DNA of 64,000 bases. Origin: Odiellus spinosus. Lineage: Eukaryota > Arthropoda > Arachnida > Opiliones > Phalangiidae. The stretch spans positions 20,175,434 through 20,239,433 of the forward strand of contig OY987227.1 of NCBI GenBank assembly GCA_963920705.1. The letters run 5' to 3'. The position numbers and the translations under genes are program-made. Shown in pieces: positions 52,101 through 58,100 of the stretch (position 1 is the stretch's first letter; each line of letters starts with the position of its first letter). Under the pieces are notes generated by a model. The model ran no database searches. It was not told the origin of the DNA and worked only from the letters and a program-made list of their open reading frames with translations.

Positions 52101-55100
52101 AGATTTGACGCTTAATTATCTTGACACTTCTTACTGGCCTTAATCTTATCGGAAACCCCCACGGCTGTGTTTTCTTATCTTCTTGAAATTTTGTTGTTTT
52201 CGTTCCCCTCTTAATTTCCGGGATTATATTCCTTTAGTGATGGGTTGAGAGAGAGAGAAAATCACTTTAAAGGGATGATAAAACGAAGTAGAATCAAATT
52301 TCCTTAAAAGTTAAGTTCCAGAAATCAAAAAAGTAATTAAATGTAGGTTCGTAATTTAAACTCATAGGATCTTTTCTGAAATTATAGTTTTTTATTTGAT
52401 ATATAAATTATAATATTGAATTAAAATTTTGGATTTAAAGGGAATATAAACCAAATCCATAAAAAGCTTCTTATGTACACGCAACGGCTTGTTTATTTTA
52501 CTTCATTGAGTTAACTATCGCCGCATTTAGTTCGGATTTATTCATGTCCTCCCAGTTACCCATTCTGATAAGATATTCACCTCTTTAATCCCCCGCCCAC
52601 TTATTGGTTAAACACCAGAATGGCGACCAAATTTGAAGCAACACTTATATTTTATGAAAGGTGGTTTGAAGACTATACTTCACATTGGCTAGTCCCTATC
52701 ACGTGATCCACCCTTTTGATTCATTACCTTACATTTTAAAGGTTTTAAATTCAATTAATTTAAAATTAAAACCTAATTATCGATTTTTTTTTTTTTACAT
52801 CAATATCAAAAACTTTTCGTTTCGGCCTCCCTTCCCTTTTTAAAAATCTAAGCAGGTTGTGGCCCTAAGATTAGACCCAATTTAATTATAAACCGAAACT
52901 CCAATTTTCCCTTTAGCAGAATCTCACGATAAATGAAATCGTGAATCGTTTAAAAAAAATTTAAATCCCGAATCCATTTCTCACGTTTTGTTCTCAATCA
53001 TCAGTTTTCCTAACCAGATAAAATTTATATATGAGACACGGCGAAAACAGAAAACTGTAACATGTGGTCCCGAAATATTTTCCGTACGATTTGTAATTGA
53101 TTTGTTCGATCAAAAACTACGATTAAACTTATAGCCCAGTAAAATTAGAGTTGGACCATGACAATTTCCCCAAAAAGATGAAAATTGGCACATGCATAGT
53201 TTTTAATGAGAAAAAAAATATACTAAAAGTCCCGGAGCCTGGGACGCTTGCTTCCGACGCCATCTTGGAAAATGGCCGCCTCGGTAGTTAATGTTGAAAT
53301 AATCATATCTAGTGATCAAAACCTGTTATTGAGGTTGCGTACACATTAAAATTGATTTAATTTCTGATAGTTTAATGAAAAATTTATTTGAGGCTAAGAG
53401 ATATTAAGTGGCGCCATCTTGGAACATGGCTGACCATGAAGGTTCAAGATTTTGATATATTTTCGAACAGATATTATTAATAGCAAAAATAATAAAGTTA
53501 TTTACTAAAACATTTATTTCACTGACATATTTAATTGCAGAACACCATTGTACTATAAGCGGTCTTGCTCTTCGTATTCTTCTATAAATTCGTCAAGTAT
53601 AGATTCTATGTTTTCACAATCGTTTCCTCGACAATGTCCACACATAGCGGTGCAAAATAAACCGGCTTTCTTACATTCGCAATTACGTACGCATCTCTTT
53701 TTGCACCCACAACTAATTAGGTTCAGAAGATGGTCCGGTGCTGGAGCAAGTAATGTAGGAATAGGGCTTAGATTTCCGCTAGTGTCAAATTTCCATCCCC
53801 ACTCTTCTGGGGGTATATCGTTTCCTCTCCACTGCTGTATTTGATGGTAAACTCTAAATGAGTGTTGCTTCGCGGCTTCTGATGTAGGTGGCAATTTTGC
53901 TAAATCAAACGCAGACTTTACAGCTAGGCGTGCTATTGACTTGTTGTAAGCGAAATACCTGCAGTGATTCAATGATTCTTGCTTTTTCCCCCCGTAAAAT
54001 GAAGTAAGGAAGCTTTCTCCAGCACGAGCAATTTCTTCGTGTGAACTGTCTGGCTCATTAAATGCAGACATGGACATCATCAATGTTTTGTTTCCTTGTA
54101 AGAGTTTAAGCGCCATTTTCTTGCCCTTTCCAAATAAGGCGGATGTAGTGTCACACCCTGTGACTGCGTGAATGAACATTAAATGTTGGCATACTTCTCC
54201 TAAGTGTTTCTCAAAAGCGGCGATTTTGATTAGCTTGTTGTTAGTGCTTCTAGATCCTGGCTTCAAAAAATACAGGTTTGAATTGTTTCTAGCGAGGGCA
54301 ATCAAAACCACAACGACGTCTGTATCTTCAGCAACGACCACAACGTTTACATTTTGGGCTAGAGCAATGGCTGTAGTAACTATGAGTCTGTCTGCATCGG
54401 CCAGAGCCTCGCAGCTGTTAATACCTGCTTCTTGAAGTCTTTCACGCAAGATCTTTATTAGTTGCTTCTTGTTATTGGAATTATTTAAAAAATTAGCCTG
54501 GGTTGTTGAAACAAACATGTTTTCTTTTACCTCGACATTCATGGATATGTTTTTAGAAGACCTTCTTAAATGTTCCATCGATTTTGTGGAGTGTACGTTA
54601 TATCCGTCAAAAACAACAGTTACACGCGAGCTGTAATGATTCAATAAGTACGAGATGTAAACACCAATAACATCTTTATAGGTAGCTGGTTTTGGCCAAA
54701 GAACTTTGTGCAAGAGGTGACCGCCATCTACAACGTACAATGGTTCGTTATTTGTAGTGACTTCATTTTCGTCTGATATTAGATCTACTAAGGCCGACAA
54801 AAGCGAAGCTTTGTTACCTTTCCTCATGGAAAAATCATCGAAGAGTGACGGTGGTCGAGGTGCGAGTTCATAAGCCATATAATCACGAAGTTCTTTGCTA
54901 GATCCCATTACGCAAGTTATTCGATTGAATAGCTGCTGCGAGTTAACAACAATAATTTCGTCTCGAACTTTAATTCCATTATTCATAGACGCTAGTGTTT
55001 TCACTTTGTCTTTACGTTTCAATTTCATGCCAGCAAAGTCTTTCCCTATCATATCCTGCATGGATTTCAAACCAACCTGTCTGGCTTGATGGCAATTTAT

Positions 55101-58100
55101 AGTTTCATCAGCAACCATACCAGAGGCCAGTGATATCAAGCTTTTGTTCGGCCTGCTGAAGGGATTGCGATCTCGAAGCCAAGCTATTAGTTTGCCAGTG
55201 TCTTCTTTGTCTCTACTCTGACGGCTATCGCGAAGTTCAACGTGTTGATCGGAAGAGCCACTGACAATGCCACTAAATTGCTCAATCGCATCGCTTATTT
55301 GGATGCACGCTGGCATGGCGTTAATCCAAGTAGACAGTGTACTGTCGGTTATGCCCCGGCCGTGGGTTAGTCCACCCGTTGCCTTCATTGATCTCATAAG
55401 AATTTGCTCAATTGTCATGTCGGTCCAAATACCAGCCCAGTATCGATCAGAGCGTCGAACGGTAAAGAACCCGCCTTCTACAAATTTTTTTAAATGTTCC
55501 ACAGACATCATTTTCCCTAGGTCTTCCATGTGTTGAACATATATTTGTGCCGCTTTAGCGTAGGGTAAATGCGCTGCAGCGTGGAAATATGGAAGCATTT
55601 CCCGAATGCATTTTAAATGTAGAGTCCAGTCGCCAGTGCGCTCTGCCCGAATGAACTGCCTAATCAAGGCTACCTGTTCATAATATTGCAACCACAACAT
55701 TGCCGTGAAATTTTCTTTCTTCAAATTTGAGATTACTTTTCCTAGTTTTTCCTGTATCGATAAAAGAGTATGGGAAACATCTATATCGTCAAGGTTTGCG
55801 TTATTTTCCATAAAATCCTTATATAAAATACGTATTTCTTCAAGTTCATCATCCGCAACCTCAACATATTCGATAAGCAAAGAAAAGAGAGCCAGTTGAG
55901 TCAACGAATTTGCTCGAAGAGCTCGAGCATAGGCATGACCCGAAAGCATATGGTCAACTGAAGACTTTGCGTACATAACACACCATAATTCTTCTAGACC
56001 ACTTCCAGCCATTATATTACCAATGGTCCCCATAAATGACATTAATAAGTGGAATCCTCCAAGTCGTGGGATAATCTTTGATAATGGGCTACTTTTCTCA
56101 GCTGCAAAAACCATTTCCATAGCTTTAATGTACAAAGGTTGATCGAAGGTAACAATGCAGTGGTCTTGGTTATGTTTCTGCACTTCGTTAATAGCAAACA
56201 TTAGAGCCGTGTAAATAGTTGTCAAGTTGCCTGGATCCATGGTTATGAACGGAACAGGTATAACTTTGGTTGTCTCATATCTGGTGTTATGTGAAAAGGC
56301 TTTTAACATATATCCGTTCCAACCGGGAGCACATTTTTCAACTGTTGAGCCAAGAGCCCATAGAAGGTCTAGAATTATTTTCGAACAGGTAAAATGGTTA
56401 GCAAGGTCCTCTGCAATGAATAAATCTTTGGCGACTATTTTCTTCAGTCCAGATTCATTTGGTTTCTTGTATACCAATGGTGTTATCTTCCCCGTGTCTG
56501 TTATGGAGGACGTTAAAGTGGGCGTAGAAACCCGCTTTACTGCCGCTGAAATTTTTACCGAATGTGATGGCGTTACGCATTTGATGCCACCCATGCTGTG
56601 GAAGGTTCCTAGTCCGTCGAGTGTTCTAATATTGAAGTCCGCGTTGTCAAACACGAATTGGACGTACGCGTTGCTGTCAATGGTCGTACACGTTGAGTCA
56701 CCAATAACTGCCCGTTCGTAGCGTAACACCTCGTTATAACTGGCGCAGAAACCCAAATGACACAATATGTCGATCAATTGCCGGGATGCGTAGTTTCGAT
56801 GTAAATGAACTGCTAAACCAACTTGTAGAGACGAAATAAAAGAGCGAGGACGCGCTGCTGATATTATTGCATGTTCTATGGAAATACATTTTCTTTTGGT
56901 GGATTTGGTTACCTTCTCTACAAACAGGCGGAGTGTTTCTGGAATATCGTCTTGGCTTCCATTTAATATATCGGTTTCATTTGAGTATAGTGTCAAGTCG
57001 TAAAGTCGAGAGCGAATATCTTCTCTAATGATAGTGGCCGCAGCTTCTACAATTCTCTTCCGTTCTTCAACTAGATCGTCCTTTCTTTGATTGTACCAAG
57101 AATCTAGAAGTAAGTTATCAGCGCTTTCTAGGAACGTTGCAATGCTTGGCTTGGGAGGACGGTCTGTGATGGTCATTTTTGCACCAAATACTCGCGTCAA
57201 TTTTCTCCTCATATGCAGCTCACTGTAGCATATTTCCGACTCGCAGAATTCCTTAAGTTTTTCGTATAGACTTTTCACGGTATACTGACATTCATCACTG
57301 CTAGTGATTAAATCACAGAGTTTATTAAAAGCAAGAGCAGCGGCAGAGTACTCGGGTCTTGTTAGAGTAGCATCGCTTTCACTGGTAGATGCCGAAGTTT
57401 TAAAGAAATTGCATTTAAGAAATTTGACGTAACATTTCGAGTGGTAACGGGCCTCAGCAGCCACCAGGTCTATGGTATCACCAATTCTTGATAGTACAGA
57501 GGATCCCCTTTCGTCACTGAGTTCTAGAGCATGCTTCTTTATTGTGTCAATTACATTTATAGTTCTTACTTCAATCACGTCTTTTCTGTACTTTATGGGT
57601 TTCTTTATCTCCAATTCCTGTTTAGCAATTTCACCACAAAACAAGCAGCGCTGTTTGAAGTCGAAAATATTGTCAGACGAACGCAACTGCCGAGGATTAT
57701 TTGTTGCCTCCTTTGATTGTGAACTAGATTTTAAGGCTTTGGCGATTGAGGTCGGACGAGTGTAGTCCTTACGGCAAGTGGCGTGCAGCAATACGGATTT
57801 CCTACCCGACAGTTTTTTATCAAGATCATCTTTTCTCTTAAAACTTGCTTCGATCAGGGTTTTTAGGCCTCTTGAAACCGAAACAGTTTCACCACTAAGT
57901 TCTGATCCACAAATAACACATACCGTAGACACGATTTCAGCCATTTGTTAATGATAATTACACGTAGAAATCATTTAGCATAGGTTTTTAACATTAGTTG
58001 AAAGAAGTTAAACAACACTATTGAGCTGGACTATAGAAGCGAAAATAGTTGCCTGCAACACTCTTGTTTGTTATATGTGTAATAATCGGCATTTAAGAAA

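Follow-up and report, generated by a model that had tools for sequence, protein, structure and literature searches.

The 64,000-nucleotide (nt) stretch of the Odiellus spinosus genome analysed here (contig OY987227.1, positions 20,175,434 to 20,239,433; hereafter the window) carries a recently mobile transposon with a clean insertion and one intact protein. Judged by its sequence features, the element belongs to a known family, AcademX, as a new member. It is probably an autonomous, recently active cut-and-paste DNA transposon, with the roles proposed below for a candidate D-D-E core, a fused nuclease and subterminal dyads. The protein architecture was already known. The conserved dyads, which resemble binding sites of the host protein YY1 and lie almost equally far inside the termini, may be a feature that a specialist would not expect. 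They suggest a candidate host factor and a likeness to the transposon lineage from which V(D)J recombination arose. Five near-identical intact copies with defined ends are a ready substrate for probing what a flap-type nuclease does inside a transposase.

When the edges of the five copies were aligned, the element spanned 5723 bp (53132-58854), with the coding strand minus and with termini reading TAGCCCAGTAAA...TTTACTGGGCTA. The following parts were located in the window.

53132..58854, minus strand: complete element, assigned to AcademX; four other copies are 99.93-99.98% identical up to these bounds and have unrelated flanks
53129..53131, no strand: target site duplication TTA, low-coordinate side (duplication comparison)
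58855..58857, no strand: target site duplication TTA, high-coordinate side (duplication comparison)
53132..53143, plus strand: terminal inverted repeat TAGCCCAGTAAA (edge alignment)
58843..58854, minus strand: terminal inverted repeat, complement of TAGCCCAGTAAA (edge alignment)
53161..53280, plus strand: subterminal inverted repeat, 120 nt, 86% identity between arms (repeat comparison)
58696..58815, minus strand: second arm of the subterminal inverted repeat (repeat comparison)
53553..57944, minus strand: transposase-nuclease reading frame, 1463 amino acids (aa) (open reading frame translation)

Over about 5.72 kb, the window copy was 99.93, 99.95, 99.97 and 99.98% identical to the other four copies in the 443-Mb genome. 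The five copies had differing flanks, and each had its own 3-bp duplication (5/5). Because the copies are at least 99.93% identical and each carries a duplication of its own, the family must have moved recently. The 1463-residue frame had been placed at 53553..57944 in an earlier sequence-only reading, and these coordinates were exact; the strand, which that reading did not give, is minus. The frame starts with ATG and is the sole open frame longer than 170 aa within the window. It is not a chance frame, since all four other copies encoded the whole protein without a stop and six related families were found. At the insertion point of copy L005, two tandem units of a related repeat (about 82%) on another contig spanned the site without the element; the units had small gaps at the junction, and the comparison gives weak support to a simple insertion. 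End searches of the genome recognised no short non-autonomous copies of the window family. Beyond the five full copies, these searches returned a relict, the locus L040 and partial or decayed matches, one of them at C8:5751209, and the counts are lower bounds. At L016 4653-8180 (minus strand), the relict, which had about 86% protein identity to the window family, was split by a Gypsy-like pol frame with reverse transcriptase, RNase H and integrase domains. As this frame interrupts the relict, the relict was dead no later than the Gypsy-like insertion.

Protein and end searches of the genome identified at least six further families, F2-F7, with about 33-50% protein identity to the protein of the window family (F1).

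F2: L006, L037
F3: many copies, some shortened
F4: L011, L012, L015, L019, L036
F5: L028
F6: L034, about 33% protein identity
F7: L040, found through its ends

Mutual protein identity among F1-F5 was 40-53%, with the F1 relict excluded. The sequence TAGNNCAG was present at both ends in F1, F2, F3, F4 and F7, and the single ends seen for F6 and F5 read TAGTGCAG and TAGTCTAG, respectively. The ends of F1 and F7 were alignable over 56 nt in all at 84%, and those of F1 and F3 showed little that was alignable outside the 23-mer described below. A tblastn search confirmed no relatives in prokaryote and viral contigs. Five short F3 derivatives (L029-L033, 2223-2225 bp) kept both ends and 3-bp duplications, and their frame of about 328 aa corresponded to residues of about 320-614, from D433 to D601. 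Adjoining the F6 coding part, a 212-aa frame (L034 4452-5090, plus strand) had no Pfam match and was read as the GIY-YIG part of a Penelope-type element.

The nuclease of AcademX elements is of the XPG type. Target duplications were compared in the 22 copies with both ends (F1, F2, F3, F4 and F7) and were 3 bp long in 19/22 and 4 bp long in 1/22 (L013), with none in 2/22 (L019 and L026). According to the accessible part of PMC10045372, which cites Kojima, AcademX has 3- or 4-bp duplications and a nuclease, whereas AcademH has 9- or 10-bp duplications and a helicase, and the difference in duplication length seems related to the encoded nuclease or helicase. Because the duplications of 3 or 4 bp (20/22 copies) and the nuclease match this definition, the earlier assignment to the Academ superfamily holds and can be narrowed to AcademX. 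The helicase and the 9- or 10-bp duplications that the same part of the source gives for AcademH, of the same superfamily, were not seen here, and no helicase was among the Pfam matches up to E 1 for the window protein. In the accessible part of a bivalve survey, the mean Academ length was 5565 bp and Academ was classed as a DDE/D superfamily, following its reference 31 (PMC10294476). The element has the nuclease, the 3- or 4-bp duplications, the inverted ends and a length of about 5.6 kb in common with the AcademX lineage; it differs from known AcademX in belonging to new families in this genome and in the conserved YY1-like subterminal dyads. One new Academ-1 insertion was recorded in Daphnia magna mutation-accumulation lines, as stated in the accessible part of PMC8594854, so Academ elements move in animals today.

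In the mechanism that we propose, the D433-D601-E846 core would cut the 3' ends and join them to target cuts staggered by 3 (rarely 4) bp; DDE-type strand transfer at staggered cuts is suggested by the 3-bp duplications. The fused XPG/EXO1-type nuclease would make or trim the cut on the other (5') strand, and this two-strand division of labour would make hairpin ends unnecessary. The subterminal GCCATNTT dyads would be bound by host YY1, as in the lancelet element ProtoRAG, or by zinc-binding regions of the transposon protein itself, marking and pairing the ends. In Tn7, TnsA cuts the strand that TnsB does not, and each strand has an enzyme of its own, as we suggest for AcademX. However, TnsA is a restriction-type nuclease and a separate protein, whereas the AcademX nuclease is fused. 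A distinct end-processing step had also been suggested in the sequence-only reading; no biochemistry on it was found in the literature searched, and the step is one that we infer.

The dyads were located by motif search at both ends of the window element.

53258..53280, plus strand: outer dyad CGCCATCTTGGAAAATGGCCGCC, an inverted pair of YY1-like half-sites (GCCATNTT)
53412..53434, plus strand: inner dyad, 3 mismatches to the outer dyad
58696..58719, minus strand: outer dyad of the opposite end, 1 mismatch
58547..58554, plus strand: inner GCCATTTT half-site of the opposite end

Counted from the termini, CGCCATCTTGGAAAATGGCCGCC occupied positions 127-149 at one end and CGCCATATTGGAAAATGGCCGCC positions 137-159 at the opposite end, each an inverted GCCATNTT pair. 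Together the two 400-nt ends held 7 GCCATNTT half-sites; 400 simulated sequences averaged 0.13 per 800 nt, and none held more than 2. Sites of this kind were found in 6/7 families, about 128-158 nt inside the ends, and five families have them as inverted pairs; distances in the relatives are approximate (late by one base in the relict and F4 and by two in F5), and F5 and F6 are represented by one end each. The 23-mer CGCCATCTTGGAAAATGGCCGCC, exact or with one mismatch, formed the outer site of F3 ends where found and of both F7 ends. F2 and F5 had AAAATGGCCGCCATTTT at about 132-148 and 142-158 nt, and F6 had a single AAGATGGCGGC at about 138 nt and AAAATGGCGGCCATTTT at 284 nt. Inner sites near 275-301 nt were present in both F1 ends, F2 and F6, and the F3 inner site was at about 456 nt.

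Genome-wide, the 23-mer had 92 exact matches and its reversed control 0, and a looser 19-mer had 226 matches and its control 0. Inward-facing pairs less than 12 kb apart accounted for 74 of the 92 matches, and 37 of 39 close neighbours were so arranged. Eight of the pairs in the genome were spaced 1932-1938 apart, matching the short F3 derivatives. In 14 of 15 further stretches, TAGNNCAG lay 127-137 nt outward of the 23-mer; L054 was without it. Since these 14 were all F3-type ends, and F3 dominates the 92 matches, they tie the motif to the ends of elements and do not add further independent families.

The AcademX half-sites fit the YY1 core, and GCCATNTT is the YY1 motif. According to the accessible part of PMC7481187, the lancelet ProtoRAG terminal inverted repeat has an element, TR5, that reads GCCATCTTG, its authors named CGCCATNTT as a YY1 motif, and YY1 binding was shown by shift assay. 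There, YY1 represses transcription, assists the RAG-like proteins in locating the correct ends and limits transposition (PMC7481187). ProtoRAG resembles AcademX in having a YY1-motif element inside the inverted repeat, like the GCCATNTT sites; it differs in its RAG1/2-like proteins, its 5-bp duplications and the binding shown for YY1, whereas the AcademX likeness is one of sequence. As a hypothesis, YY1 may have a host-factor role at AcademX ends, and it is just as likely that the transposase itself reads the dyads. A more far-reaching proposal, which we make tentatively and hold to be on the unlikely side, is that AcademX depends on host YY1. The sites at about 130-150 nt, in several families again at about 275-300 nt, would then be a second, host-read end recognition as in ProtoRAG, and two transposon lineages would have come to use one host protein for pairing or restraining their ends. 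No paper naming both 'Academ' and 'YY1' was found, which is weak evidence of novelty as most subscription papers were outside the search.

The alternative that only the transposase recognises the dyads, with the YY1 likeness a coincidence, falls just short of an even chance. In keeping with this alternative, the dyad goes with the ends of elements and mostly faces inward, and the protein has Cys/His-rich regions of its own. Coincidence is harder to reconcile with both half-sites independently fitting GCCATNTT, and with F2, F5 and F6 keeping the same 8-mer in another arrangement.

The nuclease assigned to the second strand in the proposed mechanism was located as follows.

54075..54749, minus strand: XPG/FEN1/EXO1-type nuclease domain, residues about 1066-1290 (profile match and conserved acids)

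That a FEN1/EXO1-type nuclease lies within the transposon protein, as the sequence-only reading had proposed, was borne out by a profile match and by conserved acids. A profile of residues 1041-1463, for which five families supplied seven sequences (one each from F1, F2 and F7, two each from F3 and F4), matched three EXO1 sequences with E 8.8e-5 (human EXO1), 9.3e-5 and 0.0012. The next, unrelated matches began at E 0.22, and a flap endonuclease (1mc8) was matched at E 0.84. Single sequences searched against Pfam matched no XPG family. The EXO1 alignment paired D1113, D1183/D1185, D1207/D1209 and D1265 with EXO1 acids that we take to be active-site residues; D1073 lay outside the alignment and was assigned by position. 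These seven acids, all named in the sequence-only reading, were present, but E1179, named along with them, was not conserved: the window family alone has E there, F2 and F3 have Q, and F4 has I. Since E1179 varies while D1183 and D1185 stay acidic, it is presumably these two that form the pair equivalent to FEN1 E158/E160.

Across loci, D1073 was D in 23/23 with the residue, D1113 in 18/21 (one E, two unreadable), D1183 in 21/21 readable, and D1265 in 21/21 with the residue. D1185 was D in 16/21 and E in 5/21 (all five F3), and D1207 and D1209 were kept in 19/21, both exceptions being one decayed relict counted twice. Over the 23 loci, which are not independent (L013/L014 are 100% identical, L016/L017 are one relict, and most are F3), all seven acids were D in 12 and D or E in 16, and the remaining loci were gapped or unreadable at some acid site, or relict. 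L040 keeps all seven; the nuclease region of F6 is decayed, with N for D1185 and the frame broken before D1207. K1121 and R1128 were present in 21/21 readable loci and R1127 in 20/21, and an invariant GK follows D1265; we take these to be like the FEN1 gateway and H3TH. On this evidence the window protein has the complete seven-acid site of a putative nuclease. The seven-acid layout of a two-metal active site and the EXO1 profile match are in common with the EXO1/FEN1/XPG nucleases. The window protein has Asp-Asp (Asp-Glu in some F3) in place of their Glu-Glu or Glu-Asp pair, and its nuclease is internal whereas theirs is N-terminal.

Second-strand cutting or trimming would be the most economical role for this nuclease. 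Its main rival is flap or gap repair: in an AcademX element, the nuclease might act after integration or excision, trimming flaps and gaps at newly made joints or processing the donor-site break, and the element could be released without it. Cleavage of 5' flaps and of gapped DNA is an activity of FEN1/EXO1 relatives, and the best profile match was EXO1, both of which suit such a role. The relation that Kojima drew between duplication length and nuclease or helicase, as given in the accessible part of PMC10045372, instead points nearer to the target cut. We consider the repair role unlikely as an account of the element, and the data do not decide between it and the second-strand role.

The strand-transfer part of the proposed mechanism depends on the centre of the protein.

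55407..56648, minus strand: candidate D-D-E core, D433 to E846 (D433, D601, E846; conservation)

The blocks FDNADF, FDQPLY and MTIEQ were where the sequence-only reading had put them, and the predicted invariance of the triad among homologues was observed: D433 and D601 were kept in 22/22 loci with the residue and E846 in 21/22, counted over 22 loci from five families with near-duplicates included. The sole E846 exception was one decayed relict, and F6 keeps the last E. A conserved block around E846 reads WTDMxIEQ. D433 and D601 are 168 residues apart and D601 and E846 are 245 apart, with divergence among the relatives around 501-550 and 701-750; this spacing would be compatible with an RNase H core that carries an insertion ahead of its final acid.

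Several points weigh against this core or against other parts of the mechanism. D436, D443, E652, E768 and D842 were as invariant as the triad, so conservation does not single the triad out. The core profile searched against solved structures found no known transposase, the best match (E 0.18) being an unrelated regulator, and its matches to DUF6589 were weak (best E 0.0036, 2/6 members, below the Pfam cut-off). The core is a candidate with a putative RNase H fold, and the case for it comes from residue conservation and from what the insertions look like. For the nuclease, some F3 loci have E for D1185 (five) or D1113 (one). For the dyads, F4 had no GCCATNTT site at its ends or in its interior in the three copies read, and it still has inverted ends, and 3-bp duplications in 2/3 copies.

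The lack of a significant match to a known transposase fold would also suit a protein in which the centre is no DDE transposase and the XPG-type nuclease is the sole catalytic part. We regard this as very improbable. Fixed 3-bp duplications together with inverted ends characterise DDE integration, each of the three acids falls in a conserved block, and a 2023 survey, in its accessible part, groups Academ with the DDE/D superfamilies (PMC10294476). A domesticated host gene, to which the intact frame might point, can be dismissed, as the five copies are nearly identical, sit at unrelated sites and have inverted ends, each with a duplication of its own.

Two further regions of the protein may bind zinc.

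57420..57944, minus strand: N-terminal Cys/His-rich region, residues 1-175 (conserved C9, C12, H54, C100, C103)
53616..53711, minus strand: C-terminal nine-cysteine CXC-like cluster, residues 1412-1443 (family alignment)

The N-terminal residues C9, C12, H54, C100 and C103 were invariant across the families compared. A CXC domain had been claimed from the sequence, and a C-terminal cysteine cluster was indeed present at 1412-1443, with 9 Cys invariant in the four families compared. It has the look of a Tesmin/TSO1 CXC domain; the Pfam CXC model PF03638 gave no match for the window copy and E 2.1 for one relative, L034. A whole-protein phmmer search returned a designed helical protein as its sole match (E 0.0085), which was taken as chance.

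Around the element, an exon-like frame with EGF-like domains was found at 60705-61175 (plus strand), about 1.8 kb past the element end, and the element may lie inside an intron of this EGF-like-domain gene. An (AT)107 tract at 51629-51843 (2-bp period, 100% matches) lies about 1.3 kb from the element. Elsewhere in the window, an exon-like frame at 900-1244 (plus strand) belongs to an alpha/beta-hydrolase gene, read as lipase-like, and a 29-bp tandem repeat is present 20 times at 39264-39845 with an open frame over part of it. The mitochondrial contig of this genome, read in the invertebrate code, has the gene order nad2-cox1-cox2-atp6 as judged from its open frames, which agrees with an arthropod. 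On another contig, C17, there were several nuclear copies of mitochondrial cox1 fragments.

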